A DNA stretch of 33,040 nt from Thermoproteota archaeon (GCA_021324265.1 JAJPJK010000008.1:1-33040); one strand, 5' to 3'. Shown: positions 25,782 to 33,040, numbered from the stretch's first letter. Made by a program: numbers and translations. Notes: generated by a model from the letters alone, not told the origin.

Positions 25782-26336
25782 CTAACGATTCTGTGTTTTT
25801 ATCCTCAATCCCTCTATATCAAACTTGCTATTGCTAACTACCCTGTATAGCTGCACAAAACCAATGAGCTTAAGTCCATCCGCAACCAAAGATATTAAGC
25901 CTAAGTTTATGATGAACAAAGGAAGAGCTAAGACATAAATTGCGCCCAAAGTATAAGTAAAGGCACCTAATTTCCTATCAAACATCATGTAATAACTGAA
26001 AGGTGCAATGCCGCCAATTGGTTCCGATAAATAGCCTATTACAATCAAATACGCACCTTCGAAACGATTTAATGAAAGTAAAATCAACCCAGCGAATACT
26101 ATAGCAAGACCTGAAGGGATGGCTAAGTTGAATATTCTCTTATGAGGCATGGGTAACTTCCTATATTCGATGTAGGCCCAGATAGCCAAGATAAACAAGA
26201 TATACATTAAAGATAGCGGTATTAAATTGGTTACTGAAGATATTCCATTGAAAACTAAGTAAAGGAGGACGAAAAAGATTAACAGCGCTGCAAAAGTGCT
26301 TATCAGCGTCCCTCTGAATAGATTTTGATATGCCAT
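25782..26336 (-). CDS. Small polytopic membrane protein of unknown function
   Basis: This 184-residue protein has about five or six hydrophobic helices (roughly 8-30, 38-56, 70-88, 92-105, 127-150) with short loops. The C-terminus is soluble and charged, ending DIEGLRIKTQNR. I recognise no family signature; its layout recalls small archaeal membrane proteins such as DUF973, but that is a guess. It lies between an ABC-2 permease gene (25-nt gap) and acnA (one base). A TATA-like sequence in the gap gives it a likely start of its own, so it may head a two-gene unit with acnA. Confidence 0.6.
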   Translation of the reverse strand: MAYQNLFRGTLISTFAALLIFFVLLYLVFNGISSVTNLIPLSLMYILFILAIWAYIEYRKLPMPHKRIFNLAIPSGLAIVFAGLILLSLNRFEGAYLIVIGYLSEPIGGIAPFSYYMMFDRKLGAFTYTLGAIYVLALPLFIINLGLISLVADGLKLIGFVQLYRVVSNSKFDIEGLRIKTQNR

Positions 26337-26355: not shown

Positions 26356-26368
26356 CAAATATTAAAAT
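26356..26368 (-). promoter_or_regulatory. Possible internal promoter upstream of the membrane-protein/acnA pair
   Basis: On the minus strand ATTTTAATATTTG is centred about 26 nt before the ATG at 26336, the right spacing for a leaderless archaeal transcript. It overlaps the last codons of the permease gene. This would let acnA be expressed apart from the upstream exporter. Confidence 0.35.
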
Positions 26369-27168
26369 AGCGAAAACTTCCCTTTCTTCAATGCGTTTCT
26401 AAGAATAATTTTTTGGACTCTATATGAGATAATCCCCATAATAAGGACAGCTAAGATATCAAGAAGTAAGAAAAGGACTCTGTCGATAGGATAATATCCC
26501 GTAGCAGCAGCTATTATTGGCCCTATTACATAATAAAAAGGAGAATATACTATTACGCTTGCGAAACCTTTACTGAATAGCTGTATAGGTATTGCTCCAC
26601 TGAAGAAAGGTATTATGAATTGAAGCGCCTGATTCGCCACCCAAGGTGATCTAACATTTATTATTAAAAAGCTATATGTACCCGCGAAGAAGAGAAAGAA
26701 GAGAATAGCTAAGAACAAATAAATCACGAAGAACAATGGGTCTGCAATAAAGATGTTTGCGCTGAACAATAGCGTATTGAGAAGTAATACAAGTGAACCT
26801 ATTACTGCTGTGTCTATTAAACTTATAGCGACTCTTCCAACTAAGTGAGATACTATACTTGAATTCGTCATTATAACATTCTCAAGTATTCCTTGTTGGA
26901 TTGATAAGACAAGTGATGATGCGATACCTAGAAAGTTGGAGACGAAAACGAAAAGAAAAATTCCCCAAGTAAGAGATGTAATCACCGAAGAGTTATTAAC
27001 GTAGTTCACAGCATATAGCAAAATGCCATAAAGCAAGAGAAGGACCCAAAATGGTGTTGCTAGTATATCGCTGATGAGCCATACCTTGTATCTTACATAT
27101 ATTGTTACACCTCTTTCAAACTCTGCGAATACCTTCCTGATACCTTTAATAAAAAAATTACCAGCCAT
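26362..27168 (-). CDS. ABC-2 type transporter permease (second of pair)
   Basis: This is a permease of about 268 residues with six predicted helices and an N-terminal amphipathic segment (GIRKVFAEFERGVTIYVRYK), the layout of the ABC-2 membrane family of drug, lipid or polysaccharide exporters. I place the start at ATG 27168 (MAGNFFIKG) rather than 27195. It lies within the last codons of the upstream permease (11-nt overlap) and is preceded by AAAGGA at a reasonable distance, while the longer form adds only a charged stretch (RILKRKEH). It should form the membrane channel with the adjacent permease, powered by the ATPase gene upstream. The substrate is unknown. Confidence 0.78.
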   Translation of the reverse strand: MAGNFFIKGIRKVFAEFERGVTIYVRYKVWLISDILATPFWVLLLLYGILLYAVNYVNNSSVITSLTWGIFLFVFVSNFLGIASSLVLSIQQGILENVIMTNSSIVSHLVGRVAISLIDTAVIGSLVLLLNTLLFSANIFIADPLFFVIYLFLAILFFLFFAGTYSFLIINVRSPWVANQALQFIIPFFSGAIPIQLFSKGFASVIVYSPFYYVIGPIIAAATGYYPIDRVLFLLLDILAVLIMGIISYRVQKIILRNALKKGKFSLF

Positions 27169-27937
27169 ATGTTCCTTTCTTTTTAATATACGCACGCTCG
27201 AAATATTTGTAAATCAGATAGCCTGCGATCAAATAGAAGAACATGAAAGGAAAAGGCATGGTAAATATTTGGTTGATGAAACCTTGGACAGTTGACCTTG
27301 CATACTCAACAGCGTAATAATATGGCAATGCACGACCAATTATTTGCAGTACATAGGGCAACAAAGTAACTGGGTATAGGAAACCTGAAACCACAGCTAT
27401 GAAACTTGCAATTAGATTCGCAATAGGTTCAGGCTCTCTAACAATTATACTAACAGCTAGAAAAATTAAACTGAAGCCTATGGCTGGGATTAGAGCAACG
27501 TACAACACTAAAAGAGAAACAATGAAATTCAAGATACCGGCAAAGCCAAAGGCTATTATCGTTGCAACGACACCCACAATGATATAGTTTATAAGACCAA
27601 ATAGACTGCTCGATATCATATTCGAAAAAATCATAGTGAAAGGGCTTATGGGAGAACTCAAAAGGTATTCTAGTCTTCCTGTTAGCAATCCTTCCCTCAC
27701 AAAGGATGCTGCAGAAAAAGTCATCATGAGAGCAACGATATACATCGCTAAACCTATAAGTTGGTAGAAAAGCAATCTAGGATCAGCAGGCCTTCCTCCC
27801 ATACCAGAGCCTAAGGCATATGCAACGAAGGCAAATAAGAAAGGAAAGGAAGAAATTCCAATGAACCAGCTGACCTCTCTCAGTAAGCTTCTAAGCTCAG
27901 CCTCAACTATACCCATAACTTGGTTTATCACTCTCAT
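27158..27937 (-). CDS. ABC-2 type transporter permease (first of pair)
   Basis: The 259-residue protein has six membrane helices. The ABC-2 coupling region is VREGLLTGRLEYLLSSPISP (about 82-101), which precedes the second helix pair. VSIIVREPEPIANLIASFIAV and the PVTLLPYVLQIIGRALPYYYAVEYAR segment are typical of DrrB-like exporters. The ATG overlaps the ATPase stop by 4 nt and its own stop overlaps the second permease, so ATPase and both permeases are made together. A heterodimeric channel is likely. Confidence 0.82.
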   Translation of the reverse strand: MRVINQVMGIVEAELRSLLREVSWFIGISSFPFLFAFVAYALGSGMGGRPADPRLLFYQLIGLAMYIVALMMTFSAASFVREGLLTGRLEYLLSSPISPFTMIFSNMISSSLFGLINYIIVGVVATIIAFGFAGILNFIVSLLVLYVALIPAIGFSLIFLAVSIIVREPEPIANLIASFIAVVSGFLYPVTLLPYVLQIIGRALPYYYAVEYARSTVQGFINQIFTMPFPFMFFYLIAGYLIYKYFERAYIKKKGTYGW

Positions 27938-28884
27938 TTTTCCTCAACAACTTTAGCGAAAGCTTCCTCCAAACTAGGTTCGATGATTTTGATATTCCCT
28001 ATTTCATAGCCCTTTGTCCTTATTTCATCTACTATCCTTAGCAGATCCTCAGTGGGCTTTTCTGAGATAACCTTTATGACTGGAAAGCCTCTTTCACCTA
28101 TCTTGAAATCTAAATCAAGTTTAGGATTATCATTTAAGACTTCTACCTCGATCATATGCTTTAGCTTAAGCTTATTTTTCACCTCCCATGGAGATCCTGA
28201 AATCACTATTTTTCCTTTATTTATGATCGCAACCCTGTTGCTTAAATTCTCTACTTCCCACATATTGTGGCTGGTTAGTAATACAGTCTTACCCTTCTCT
28301 GCTAACTCTTTTATTAGATTCCTTATCTTCCTTGCTGAAATCGGATCCAGCCCTATCGTTGGCTCATCAAACAAAAGAATAGGCGCATCATTGATAAGGC
28401 ATTTCGCTATGCTCAATTTTGCCATCATACCTAGGCTGTATTCATCAACAGTTCTATAAGCATCCTTGCCCAAGCTAACTGAATCAACAAGCTCCTTTGC
28501 ACGCCTAAGCGCTTCTTGCTTAGACATCCCATAAAGCCTTCCATAATAGACAAGATTTTCTATGCCAGTTAGTCGAGAATAAAAGCCCTTATTGGCATAA
28601 AGTACGATACCTAAATTTTCTCTTACCTTCTTTGGTTCTTTTATGACGCTGTAACCATTAACATAAGCCTCACCTTTATCTGGAATTAAAAGCGTTGCGA
28701 TTATTTTTATTGTGGTAGTCTTGCCTGCACCGTTAGGGCCAACCAAGCTGAATATTTCTCCTTTCTCAACCTCAAAACTCACACCATCAAGCGCCTTAAC
28801 TGTTCTATATGAGCTATTGAACAATCCCTTTCTTTCTCTAGTCTTGTACTCTTTATAAATCTCATTTACTTGTAACATCCTCAT
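27934..28884 (-). CDS. ABC transporter ATP-binding protein (exporter type)
   Basis: This is the ATPase of the exporter formed with the next two genes. Counted from ATG 28884, Walker A GPNGAGKTT is at about 49-57, Walker B ILLFDEP at about 170-176, and the switch His in TSHNMWE near 200. The signature is SLGMMAKL where LSGGQ is usual, a departure also seen in some archaeal ABC-2 ATPases. A C-terminal extension of about 90 residues with two alpha/beta repeats is typical for DrrA-like subunits. The frame is open to a GTG at 28893, but ATG 28884 follows the upstream stop by a single T, so I prefer it. Downstream overlap with the permease is 4 nt. Confidence 0.9.
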   Translation of the reverse strand: MRMLQVNEIYKEYKTRERKGLFNSSYRTVKALDGVSFEVEKGEIFSLVGPNGAGKTTTIKIIATLLIPDKGEAYVNGYSVIKEPKKVRENLGIVLYANKGFYSRLTGIENLVYYGRLYGMSKQEALRRAKELVDSVSLGKDAYRTVDEYSLGMMAKLSIAKCLINDAPILLFDEPTIGLDPISARKIRNLIKELAEKGKTVLLTSHNMWEVENLSNRVAIINKGKIVISGSPWEVKNKLKLKHMIEVEVLNDNPKLDLDFKIGERGFPVIKVISEKPTEDLLRIVDEIRTKGYEIGNIKIIEPSLEEAFAKVVEEK

Positions 28885-28885
28885 A

Positions 28886-30145
28886 TTACGCACCGTATTT
28901 TTCTATTACATCTTTTAAGATAGATATAATTATAACTGGATCAAAATATATTATGCTTTCATTCTCGTTGATTTGTTCAATGATCTTTTTTTCCAACGTT
29001 TTTAATAATTCACTAGCTAACTCTGAACTCGATATCGAATACGATTTACCGCCATGGCTAAAGATGACTTTATTCTCTTTGACGGCAAGCTTAAATTCAG
29101 GTGCGCTTATACGCATTTCTCTTGGGAATACTTCAAATTCGTAGCCAAGATATCTTATCTTTATTCCTTTTCTTGAAAAATTAAAATGATCATCGCCCAA
29201 AATAATGCTTAATTCCTCTTTTCCTATTCTAACTGTGGATTTTGGATCATTGGAATAAATGAAGAGCAATGCACGAGGATCCTTTGCACTTGAGGATACC
29301 CTAATAAAAGGCCAAATCTCAACTTCCTCTACCCCAAAACCACTCTCAACACTAATAGGACCAACATTTACTCTTTCACCGAATTCGTCGCTCTCAACAG
29401 TTATAAAAGGAAGGTGAACATATTCATTGCTTCGCTTAAATCTTGGCACCATAGTTAATAAAGATTGAGCTTTGTTCAATAGCTCATTCGAAACTTTCAC
29501 TTGACTTCCTCTAATACGAAGTAAGGGTGAGTGTAGCATCATAGGACCACGTAGCTTAAGCTTTAAGCTTCCAAGTTCATTATTAATATCTATATTTAAA
29601 TTTCCGAAAAATAGAAAACCTATTTTTTTACCTCCTCTTTTTACAATGACAACGTCACCTCCCTCGCCTACGCATGAAGAAAAGTCATTAGGCTTGATTG
29701 TGAATGAAGTTATATGCAAAGCGCTTCTTTCGATTTTTAATTTCAGGTCATGATAACGCAGACCATATAAAGTAAAAGAGGCCAGCTTTAATATTATGCC
29801 TGCGATCAAAAGTTGCCAAGTATAATCTGTGAAGGGTTTCGATAGCCCTAGAAAGCTAAAAATTAGAATTACCAAGAAGCTGAAGAGAGCTATATTCCCT
29901 AACTTGCTAAAGATTTCTGTTATCAATGATGCTATTCCATCAACCTTCCACTTTACATACTGTGATAATGAGAAGAAAAGAATTGAAACCAATATTATTT
30001 CATTGCCATAGCTTTCAAGATTGAATAGACCTCTTAAAAGCCATATAACTAGTACAACGAAGGAAAGCCCGCTAAAAAATGAGCTAAGAACTCGTGATAT
30101 CCTGAAATAAATGCTCGGTTGAGAAATTAGTTCTACACTATTCAT
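28886..30145 (-). CDS. Membrane protein with large cytoplasmic or surface beta-rich domain, unknown
   Basis: I do not recognise this protein of about 419 residues. The first 145 residues form four hydrophobic helices (about 24-40, 48-62, 82-104, 112-132). About 230 residues of alternating hydrophobic beta pattern follow (for example VVIVKRGGKKIGFLFFGNLN and KIRYLGYEFEVFPREMRIS), then a charged helical tail (SELASELLKTLEKKIIEQIN). The regular short strands recall bactofilin or toastrack-like adhesin domains, but that is only an impression. ATG 30145 is favoured over GTG 30154 because GGAGGTG lies 6 nt upstream, an excellent Shine-Dalgarno sequence. It overlaps the regulator gene by 8 nt and precedes the ABC ATPase by one base, so it is probably an accessory or sensor part of the exporter. 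Confidence 0.65.
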   Translation of the reverse strand: MNSVELISQPSIYFRISRVLSSFFSGLSFVVLVIWLLRGLFNLESYGNEIILVSILFFSLSQYVKWKVDGIASLITEIFSKLGNIALFSFLVILIFSFLGLSKPFTDYTWQLLIAGIILKLASFTLYGLRYHDLKLKIERSALHITSFTIKPNDFSSCVGEGGDVVIVKRGGKKIGFLFFGNLNIDINNELGSLKLKLRGPMMLHSPLLRIRGSQVKVSNELLNKAQSLLTMVPRFKRSNEYVHLPFITVESDEFGERVNVGPISVESGFGVEEVEIWPFIRVSSSAKDPRALLFIYSNDPKSTVRIGKEELSIILGDDHFNFSRKGIKIRYLGYEFEVFPREMRISAPEFKLAVKENKVIFSHGGKSYSISSSELASELLKTLEKKIIEQINENESIIYFDPVIIISILKDVIEKYGA

Positions 30146-30683
30146 AGACCTCACCTCCCAGCGTCTCGTTTATAAGCGCAAGCAGACGGAGTAACATCTT
30201 ACCTCTGTTGGAAATTTTGTAGCGCATCTCAGTTTCATCATGAGTTATCAAGCCTGCACTGAGCAATTGTCTTAAATTATAAGACATTGAAGAGGATTCT
30301 AGATTCAAACTCTCCTTCAACTCGCTGAAACTCATGGGATTTTTGTACAAAATTTTGAGCAACTTTATTCTATCCTCATTTGCCAACGACTTCATTATTG
30401 AACTTGCCTTATTTTCGGGCATTTTAAGGATGAGTTCATCGATCTGCGCTTCCCCACGTTCTCTAAGCCCTCTTTTTATGCTTTCCTTCAATACATTGGC
30501 TATATCCCTTAATACAATACTCGAAGGTTCCATTTCTTCAAGTTCTTCCTTCGATAAATCGATTCTTAATGAAACTGATCTGAGCTGTTTCTCTACTTCG
30601 CGCATAGTCTTTTCTATGATAGGTGCAATCATTTGACGAACAGTTTCTTCTATTTCCTTTTTCAATTCTTCTTTATCAGACAT
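30138..30683 (-). CDS. ArsR-like winged-helix regulator with N-terminal coiled coil
   Basis: The 181-residue protein has a charged helical N-terminus (about 4-40, EELKKEIEETVRQM and on) suited to oligomerisation. A winged helix occupies about 112-175: MKSLANEDRIKLLKILYKNP, FSELKESLNLESSSMSYNLRQL as the HTH, and THDETEMRYKISNRGKMLL as the wing. No clustered Cys or His suggest metal sensing. It is the first gene of the unit that contains the beta-rich membrane protein and the ABC exporter, and paired AGTACAAA copies flank its TATA box, so it probably represses or activates its own operon. The trigger is unknown. Confidence 0.8.
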   Translation of the reverse strand: MSDKEELKKEIEETVRQMIAPIIEKTMREVEKQLRSVSLRIDLSKEELEEMEPSSIVLRDIANVLKESIKRGLRERGEAQIDELILKMPENKASSIMKSLANEDRIKLLKILYKNPMSFSELKESLNLESSSMSYNLRQLLSAGLITHDETEMRYKISNRGKMLLRLLALINETLGGEVYE

Positions 30684-30730
30684 TTGTACTAAGCTATTAG
30701 ATACAAAGGCTTATATAAATTTTTTGTACT
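30683..30730 (-). promoter_or_regulatory. Regulator-exporter operon promoter with two AGTACAAA sites
   Basis: On the minus strand AGTACAAA occurs at 30730-30723 and 30690-30683, exactly 40 bp (about four helical turns) apart and on the same face of the helix. ATTTATATAA (30720-30711) between them is a strong TATA box with predicted transcription start near 30688. One site therefore lies just upstream of the TATA/BRE region and the other covers the start of transcription and the ATG. A related copy, GATACAAA, is on the opposite strand at 30700-30707. Confidence 0.6.
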
Positions 30731-30758
30731 TTACAGAAGGAATGAAGTATAAAAAATT

Positions 30759-31283
30759 TTACTTAAAGAAAGGCTCTCCGAACTTTTCAGAGAATACAAG
30801 TAATCTCAAGGGTCTTCTTGCTTTTTTGCCTATGATCTTTCTAGGAGGATAACCGAAAATCACAGCAGCACTGGGATAAAGATGTTCAGGTATGTTGAAA
30901 TCCCTTCTTAACTTTTCAATATCGAAACGAGTAAAGAGGCCAGAGGCAATGCCGTGACTCCAAGCAACAAGCTGCATGTTTTGCACCACTCTTCCAGCAT
31001 CAAGTAAATGAAAATCATAACTAGGATCTGTTAGGACTAAGATTGCAAGAGTACCATTAATTGCCCATTTTCCTGTAATACTATCTTCAGCAAGTTTTTC
31101 GATATTCTTTCTATCCTGTATGACTACAAAGCGCCAATGCTGAAGATTTTTGCCTGAACCAGTATATCTCGCAGCTTCGAGGATTTCCGTGATTACTTGC
31201 ACAGGGATAGGCTTTGAATCAAACTCTCTAATATCTAGCTTACTTTTTACATAAAATAGCAGACTTTTCGCTGCCACTTCCAT
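30759..31283 (-). CDS. Nitroreductase-family flavoprotein
   Basis: This 174-residue protein fits the small FMN-dependent nitroreductase family. KLDIREFDSKPIP with its basic FMN-contact arginine (R19) is at the start, AARYTGSGKNLQHWRFVVIQD (about 37-57) is the usual A-x-x-APS-x-x-N-x-QPW region, and LDAGRVVQNMQLVAWSHGIASG (about 95-116) forms the second helix. C-terminal VIFGYPPRKI is also typical. Ser and Gly replace the common Pro-Ser before Asn, a mild change. Such enzymes reduce nitro compounds, quinones or flavins with NAD(P)H; the physiological substrate is unknown. It lies 26 nt behind an ABC exporter gene on the same strand and may be co-transcribed. Confidence 0.85.
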   Translation of the reverse strand: MEVAAKSLLFYVKSKLDIREFDSKPIPVQVITEILEAARYTGSGKNLQHWRFVVIQDRKNIEKLAEDSITGKWAINGTLAILVLTDPSYDFHLLDAGRVVQNMQLVAWSHGIASGLFTRFDIEKLRRDFNIPEHLYPSAAVIFGYPPRKIIGKKARRPLRLLVFSEKFGEPFFK

Positions 31284-31309: not shown

Positions 31310-32575
31310 CTACTCTTCGCCCCATTTAGTTAGATATAATGATAATGCTAGAAAAACAACGCTCAAAACTCCAAGAATAATCAATGCTACAGGTGTTAAT
31401 GCAAGTACACCTTGAATCATACTTTCTCTCAAACCTACACTTAGATAGTACAATGGTAATATTGCAGCTACGGCCTGTAAGTATGAGGGCATGACTTCCA
31501 CGGGGAAGAAGACTCCACTTAAGAACATCATCGGAAAAGCGATTACTGAACCAACTGTTGCTGCAGTATCTGGCTGCTTGAAAACTGTACCAAGAACGGT
31601 TCCTATTGTGGTGAAACAGAAAGTACCGAGTATGATTCCTATCAGCGTAAGCAAGATATGAAGAGGATCTAATATTACGGTAGTTTTAAAGACGAAATAA
31701 CCTGTTATTAACAATATCACAGAGGATATGGCGATAAGGATTAGCTGGCTTAAAAATACACCGAAAATCCATTCATATTTCCTAAGAGGCGTAGCTACCA
31801 CTCTTTTGAAAATACCCCTTCTTCTCAGATCGGAGATTACACCTGTCAAACCAAAAAGGGCGTTAGACATAATAGTGAAAGCTATATAGGATGGTACATA
31901 GTAATCACTTGCTGATATCGGCCTTATCCCTATTTCAACCTCATTCACAGGTATGCTAAGATTATTTCCAGTAGAATAAGAACCAAATTTGGAAATGAAG
32001 TTATTCATAAACCCCATGAATTGTTCATAGGAAGGGTCAGCCTTACTTATATAAATTTCCAAAGAGACATTATTCAGCTTTATTTTTTGAAGAGCCGTCT
32101 TCATGTAGCTTAATAGCAAAGAAATCTCTTGTTTTTGAGTATCATTTAAATAAGTTGAATTTAGCAAAATACTTAGCTGCGCTATTCCCTCTTCAAGCTT
32201 CGCTTTTTCTGAATAATTTAATAAGTATGACTGAAAACCTCTGGGTATAACTATAACTCTTCGTTGCTCAAATATGCCGCCCTGTGATCTCGCAAAAGAA
32301 AGAGCATCGACGTTGCTGGGTATTGTTTTCACGCTGAAGATGCCAGTGTCATTAAGGCTTTTTATAAAGGCAGAAGATAGCTGTGTAGCATTTCCTTGCT
32401 GATCTAAGTCCTTGTTTTGGACGTATACTGTGAAGCTTATATTCTGAGTGTTACCGAAGATAGAACCAAATACAGCAAGCAAAAGAACCGGAAAGATTAT
32501 GGAGAAGAATAGGCCAGATCTACTTCTAAGCCATGTTTTGAAAAATGCATTGGCTACATAAACTGAGTTCTTCAT
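31310..32575 (-). CDS. ABC-2 type transporter permease with extracytoplasmic domain
   Basis: This 421-residue exporter subunit has an N-terminal helix (about 20-38) and an outer domain of about 180 residues with many polar and coiled segments. Five helices follow from about residue 232. The ABC-2 coupling segment LRRRGIFKRVVATPLRKYEW is near 252-271. FPMMFLSGVFFPVEVMPSYLQ and AAILPLYYLSVGLRES precede the last helix. The topology matches the ABC2_membrane_3 group (YhgE/DrrB-like). The ATG overlaps the ATPase stop by 4 nt, so the pair is one exporter, separate from the unit at 26362-28884. Likely roles are export of lipids, drugs or peptides; the substrate is not predictable. Confidence 0.85.
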   Translation of the reverse strand: MKNSVYVANAFFKTWLRSRSGLFFSIIFPVLLLAVFGSIFGNTQNISFTVYVQNKDLDQQGNATQLSSAFIKSLNDTGIFSVKTIPSNVDALSFARSQGGIFEQRRVIVIPRGFQSYLLNYSEKAKLEEGIAQLSILLNSTYLNDTQKQEISLLLSYMKTALQKIKLNNVSLEIYISKADPSYEQFMGFMNNFISKFGSYSTGNNLSIPVNEVEIGIRPISASDYYVPSYIAFTIMSNALFGLTGVISDLRRRGIFKRVVATPLRKYEWIFGVFLSQLILIAISSVILLITGYFVFKTTVILDPLHILLTLIGIILGTFCFTTIGTVLGTVFKQPDTAATVGSVIAFPMMFLSGVFFPVEVMPSYLQAVAAILPLYYLSVGLRESMIQGVLALTPVALIILGVLSVVFLALSLYLTKWGEE

Positions 32576-33040
32576 GCAAGCTCACCTGCTTCAGTTATCT
32601 TCGAACCAATGAGCTTAAGAAATACATCTTCCAAGCTAGGAGATTTTAATTCAATATCCTCAAATCCATTAACCTCGAGTTCATAAGCAATCTTCCTTGC
32701 TTTAAGCCTATTCTCAGTCTTTATGAGATAATAATCTTTATCTTCAATGAACTCTACCTCATCTTCTATGATTTTGGGTATTTTTGGATCCTTCCTTACC
32801 TTAACTACATACTTTATTCCATACTTATTAACCATTGATTTAGGATCATCAATGGCCATGATTTTGCCCCTTAATATGATCGCAACTCTGTCGCATAACC
32901 TTTCGGCTTCTTCGATATAATGCGTAGTTAGAAATACTGTCTTCCCAGCATCCCGAAGCCTAGTAATTACAGACCAGACAGTCCTCCTTATTTCTGGATC
33001 AAGACCAACAGTAGGTTCATCCAAAAAAACCAGTTCTGGG
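32572..33040 (-). CDS. ABC transporter ATP-binding protein, partial (C-terminal part)
   Basis: The frame is open to the window edge. The visible 155 residues start at Walker B (PELVFLDEPTVGLDP), followed by the switch His in TTHYIEEAERLCDRVAII and the DrrA-type C-terminal domain (KYVVKVRKDP to SPSLEDVFLKLIGS). Walker A and the signature lie outside. An internal TTG at 33024 is not the true start. It is the ATPase partner of the permease whose gene overlaps by 4 nt downstream. Confidence 0.93.
   Translation of the reverse strand, partial: PELVFLDEPTVGLDPEIRRTVWSVITRLRDAGKTVFLTTHYIEEAERLCDRVAIILRGKIMAIDDPKSMVNKYGIKYVVKVRKDPKIPKIIEDEVEFIEDKDYYLIKTENRLKARKIAYELEVNGFEDIELKSPSLEDVFLKLIGSKITEAGELA

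Follow-up and report, generated by a model that had tools for sequence, protein, structure and literature searches.

Envelope-stress operons encoding Toastrack or LiaI-LiaF-TM proteins are known in bacteria and include arrangements that combine a Toastrack gene with genes for a GntR-HTH regulator, an ABC ATPase and a permease (PMC11237479). These are the nearest described systems to the locus analyzed here, which is alike in working logic, with ancestry not demonstrable. The locus is part of a 33,040-nucleotide stretch of DNA from a Thermoproteota archaeon (GCA_021324265.1, JAJPJK010000008.1:1-33040), hereafter the window, and consists of genes for an ArsR-like regulator, a membrane protein with a beta-rich domain (hereafter BRP), and an ABC-2 exporter with one ATPase and two permeases. 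To our knowledge, few membrane-to-gene signaling systems have been described in archaea of this group. The regulator and BRP are a genuine, conserved, uncatalogued archaeal two-gene module, and a search of open-licence papers found no description of this pair.

A preliminary description of the window, made from the sequence, had proposed that these five genes form a tightly coupled unit, and the gene layout confirms this: all five are located on the minus strand within positions 26362-30683 (Table 1), and each overlaps its successor, by 8 nt in the case of the regulator stop and the BRP start, with further overlaps at the BRP/ATPase, ATPase/permease 1 (ATGA) and permease 1/permease 2 junctions. 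A chance arrangement is ruled out because the architecture is kept in relatives whose BRP sequences are only 16-26% identical. The strong Shine-Dalgarno sequence noticed before BRP is also real (GGGAGGTGAGGTCTATG) and falls within the final Gly-Gly-Glu codons of the regulator; given this position and the recurrence of a GGAGGNGA-like sequence at the same place in almost all relatives, translation of the regulator and BRP is probably coupled. BRP most likely starts at ATG 30145, which yields a protein of 419 aa, and not at the upstream GTG at 30154. Permease 2 is followed on the same strand, after 25 bp, by a gene for a 184-aa membrane protein with no family match (25782-26336), which may be part of the operon. 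A nitroreductase gene (30759-31283) and a second ABC-2 exporter (31310-33040), also on this strand, are found just upstream of the regulator.

Table 1. Features of the regulator-BRP locus, with the basis for each assignment
Feature	Coordinates	Strand	Size	Basis
ArsR-like regulator	30138..30683	-	181 aa	Pfam HTH_20/HTH_5; relatives
BRP, four TM helices, predicted cytosolic beta-rich domain, two terminal helices	28886..30145	-		Hydropathy, AF2 models, relatives
ABC ATPase, DrrA-like, ABC-2 exporter class	27934..28893	-		ABC_tran 3.9e-27
ABC-2 permease 1	27158..27937	-		ABC2_membrane 4.4e-10
ABC-2 permease 2, likely start ATG 27168	26362..27195	-		Homolog in G004 and equivalent gene in G001
BRP Shine-Dalgarno, GGGAGGTGAGG	30147..30160	-		Inside the last codons of the regulator; sequence, arrangement common to relatives
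TATA-box-like element upstream of the regulator, TTTATATAAG	30710..30719	-		Inferred from archaeal promoter consensus
Operator-like palindrome, AAGTAAA-N6-TATACTT	30745..30764	-		71 bp upstream of the regulator start; perfect motif match

The regulator shares with ArsR/SmtB regulators the winged-helix DNA-binding domain (wHTH; Pfam HTH_20, 7.9e-10; HTH_5, 2.4e-7). This domain is preceded by an N-terminal coiled coil, a short conserved strand segment (SLRIDL) and a helical linker, and followed by a C-terminal helix; the coiled coil and the strand segment set the protein apart from the ArsR/SmtB metalloregulators. A second difference is that the Cys/His metal-binding site of the metalloregulators is missing because the translation contains 0 Cys and 1 His, on which grounds metal sensing was rejected; the score against the NCBIfam metalloregulator model (42.5) is below the cut-off of 55. 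A role in defense, which could be read from PADLOC matches of the regulator to Csa3 and CARF models, was dismissed, given that these matches covered mainly the HTH; they were taken as generic winged-helix similarity.

BRP had been described as having four membrane helices and a beta-rich domain that could not be assigned, and this characterization was upheld on both counts. Hydropathy identifies four hydrophobic segments (residues 22-40, 53-71, 85-103 and 114-132), and the AF2 model of a homolog, L069, places helices at residues 14-38, 46-66, 74-103 and 109-137. The flanks of the four segments are more basic at the N-terminus and after TM4, which suggests a topology in which both ends of BRP, including the beta domain, would be cytosolic. 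BRP is an undescribed protein family: no match was found in Pfam, NCBIfam, PHROG, PADLOC or the PDB sequences, and a comparison of 16 members with Pfam at E<=1 detected no DUF4097, LiaF or other convincing match. A tblastn search against plasmids yielded no match, neither BRP nor the soluble partner discussed below gave a meaningful match among PDB sequences, and no catalytic motif is evident in BRP. The overall confidence of the structural models is low (mean pLDDT 50.7 for the window BRP and 63.5 for the L069 homolog), and a Foldseek search of the PDB with both models produced no match at E<=0.001. In the L069 model (pTM 0.37), the last ten strands (301-378), of about six residues each and with an 8-residue spacing, reach a pLDDT of about 75-89, and two helices come after them.

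Relatives of BRP, 16-26% identical, were identified in about 20 Thermoproteota genomes; in genome contigs, a single-sequence pattern search found none, and an alignment-based search did find relatives. They occur in G004, with the same gene order as the window, in two f29 genomes, in about 15 genomes of family f61, most of them carrying records named soil Bathyarchaeota, and in family f62, along with a Thaumarchaeota-named record. The neighborhood survey proposed in the preliminary description gave a divided answer, with the adjacency of the regulator kept and the exporter absent from most loci. The neighborhood was read in 16 genomes, in each of which the regulator gene is located immediately before BRP and overlaps it, and at all loci with sequence the regulator immediately upstream of BRP is a full-length relative, 29-42% identical. 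Among 398 sampled genomes of the phylum, eight encode a close regulator (E < 1e-58; next best 2e-16); the same eight, and no others, have a BRP match below 1e-10, and each regulator adjoins BRP. The conserved unit is the regulator together with BRP, and not the neighboring exporter.

An ATPase and a permease are encoded behind BRP in only 4 of the 16 loci, namely, the window, G004, G102 and G081. In the f61 and f62 loci, of the Bathyarchaeota and Thaumarchaeota type, the next gene encodes a zinc-type quinone-oxidoreductase-like enzyme, and there is no exporter; in f61, this gene is often followed by an NAD-dependent epimerase gene, in conserved order (L045:5719-7796, L065:9265-11306). Furthermore, G001, a genome of the window's own family, encodes an orthologous exporter (ATPase 64% identical, two permeases) with neither the regulator nor BRP alongside, and in the ATPase tree it clades with the window and G004 with support of 100/99. 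The window ATPase and permease 1 belong to the same class as the DrrAB-type ABC-2 exporters, and, with an ABC ATPase and an ABC2_membrane permease above the Pfam cut-offs, the transporter is a member of the ABC-2 exporter superfamily. It differs from the DrrAB type in having two permeases and stays below the curated thresholds of the subfamilies, TIGR01188 and TIGR01247 (drrA, 277.8 of 312.45 bits; drrB, 30.1 of 223 bits). Permease 2 has no Pfam match; its homolog is the second permease in G004 (2.9e-9).

These data bear on the proposal that BRP senses or delivers the cargo of the exporter. If BRP were a working part of the exporter, sensing or passing on cargo, the five genes would constitute one transport system, as the tight overlap of all five in the window and the regulator-BRP-ATPase-permease order, also seen in G004, G102 and G081, would suggest. 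A single exporter clade including the f29 exporters is likewise not rejected by the tree (p-AU 0.498), although the f29 ATPases form a long separate branch. We nevertheless consider this explanation unlikely because most BRP loci carry no exporter, the exporter of G001 does without the pair, and the f29 exporters have a single recognizable permease each. Independent recruitment of the f29 exporters was considered as well, and, with the p-AU value just given, no claim is made. The part of the proposal that stands is sensing, coupled to the regulator, which is the most economical reading of BRP; the exporter is best regarded as one of several outputs, secondary to the pair.

Searching with the regulator profile also brings up regulators that are more distant and match from the N-terminus on. 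The N-terminal parts of the two groups of regulators are homologous (profile P 3.3e-6; score 38.9 versus at most 19.1 among 100 column permutations). In 11 of 11 intact loci, the distant regulator is immediately followed by a gene for a soluble protein of ~190-220 aa, which starts without an evident signal peptide. The same arrangement, a regulator with a coiled coil and a wHTH directly before a beta-domain partner, usually overlapping it, characterizes all 16 BRP loci and all 11 intact loci with the soluble partner. A marginal match aside, the soluble protein was found in 14 of the 398 genomes, none of them among the BRP genomes; in several f14 genomes that encode it, the same neighboring genes recur. 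The soluble proteins of ~200 aa (L102-L112) belong to no database family and are always encoded behind a coiled-coil/ArsR-type regulator. In a profile comparison, they match the beginning of the BRP beta domain in register (P 3.7e-4; score 34.7 versus a null maximum of 22.3; P 0.47 for the reversed control), so that the two are likely but not certainly homologous, as judged from a single profile-profile match that spans about 71-96 columns and is built from shallow alignments. Given this alignment and the tie of the soluble partner to related regulators, BRP is probably a regulator-bound partner in membrane-anchored form.

The soluble counterparts also bear on the idea that BRP is not a sensor but only a target of the adjoining regulator, acting as a scaffold or as an effector that protects the membrane. 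The beta-solenoid-like tail seen in the model could conceivably polymerize, as bactofilins do, and the lack of an evident catalytic motif would fit such a role. Short strands that recur in its C-terminal half are a feature that BRP indeed shares with bactofilins (PF04519); however, BRP has no Pfam match that would assign it to this family, and the comparison with bactofilin suggested in the preliminary description detected no profile-profile relation (P 0.07). Because, in addition, the soluble counterparts also go with this regulator family and no other neighbor of theirs is conserved, we regard a scaffold or effector role as improbable.

In most relatives, a palindrome, AAGTAWA-N6-TWTACTT, identified in aligned upstream regions of the f61 loci, precedes the regulator gene, usually as a pair of copies spaced by 32 bp. 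With up to 2 mismatches allowed, there are 27 matches in 5.6 kb near regulators versus 8 in 259 kb elsewhere, the 27 matches not being independent events because several of the loci are close relatives. The window, which was not used in deriving the motif, contains one perfect copy, against a chance expectation of 0.10 in the whole window at <=1 mismatch; this copy overlaps the stop codon of the nitroreductase gene. The single copy in the window could be a promoter element because the motif partly resembles the archaeal BRE/TATA, but the presence of a second copy in relatives favors the motif itself as an operator. The palindrome was not found, at <=2 mismatches, before the regulators of G004, f29 (G102 and G081) and G578. 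Other blocks are conserved among the f29 upstream regions (L042:11640-11780, L043:10570-10710), namely, GTACAAAAATRTTAGACATTAG and, in G102, TTTGGAC-N14-GTCCAAA around the TATA; these may represent a diverged operator.

The reading that we favor, with a probability of roughly 55%, is that the regulator and BRP constitute a two-gene signaling module, in which the beta domain of BRP binds and gates the regulator and the exporter is one of several outputs. The computed components of this reading are that the genes are ordered and overlap as described, the pair and the palindrome are conserved, the exporter is separable, and the regulator is homologous to the group with soluble partners. We infer the physical binding, the direction of control (repression or activation), the signal, the cargo and the cytosolic topology. 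The winged-helix regulator and its dedicated partner BRP would be produced by coupled translation, with BRP inserted in the membrane and both its ends in the cytosol. The beta domain would bind the N-terminal coiled-coil/strand region of the regulator, and this contact would gate its binding to DNA according to a signal that is lipophilic or associated with the membrane. The regulator would act on the palindromic site before its own gene, and the module would thereby control itself and the genes carried behind it: the three-gene ABC-2 exporter in the window genome and the quinone-oxidoreductase-like enzyme elsewhere. The exporter, the upstream nitroreductase and the quinone-oxidoreductase-like neighbors faintly hint, from context, at detoxification of lipophilic or redox-active compounds. 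We see about an even chance that the module represents a broader archaeal signaling family, in which a winged-helix regulator would always be paired with a beta-domain partner, either soluble or membrane-anchored, providing a kinase-free, one-step route from the membrane or cytosol to DNA, with exporters and oxidoreductases as interchangeable outputs. The pair looks like a small, uncatalogued archaeal device for coupling gene control to a signal from the membrane or a metabolite and, if this is true, a likely role would be assigned to two protein families that are outside all databases searched. A compact regulator/partner pair found across Thermoproteota, with a candidate operator and with soluble as well as membrane-anchored partners, can be tested with purified proteins.

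Compared with known systems, the closest correspondence is to the Toastrack/LiaF operons: BRP shares with these proteins an N-terminal 4TM region and, in the predicted topology, a C-terminal cytosolic beta-rich domain, and its gene is adjacent to those for an HTH regulator and an ABC exporter (PMC11237479). BRP might accordingly belong to the LiaF/Toastrack type (4TM plus beta-helix) as a divergent archaeal member, with the operon representing an archaeal branch of the bacterial Toastrack regulator-ABC exporter operons; the ten C-terminal strands of the L069 model, with their 8-residue repeat (pLDDT 75-89), would be compatible with a two-faced solenoid. The layout, 4TM followed by a beta domain, is LiaF-like in architecture only, however, and we hold such a relationship to be doubtful. 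The Toastrack family models (DUF4097/DUF2154/DUF2807) matched none of the 16 members at E<=1, the Toastrack comparison that the preliminary description had also suggested detected no profile-profile relation (hhalign, P 0.58, with five archaeal DUF4097 proteins only), and the fold search of the PDB gave no match at E<=0.001. No histidine kinase or response regulator, the LiaF-like association, was recognized among the neighbors in the window region or in the inspected relatives. There are further differences beyond the shared layout: BRP has no detectable sequence relation to DUF4097 and is found here only in Thermoproteota, the regulator is ArsR-like, and, in a further difference from Toastrack, BRP has a family of soluble counterparts.
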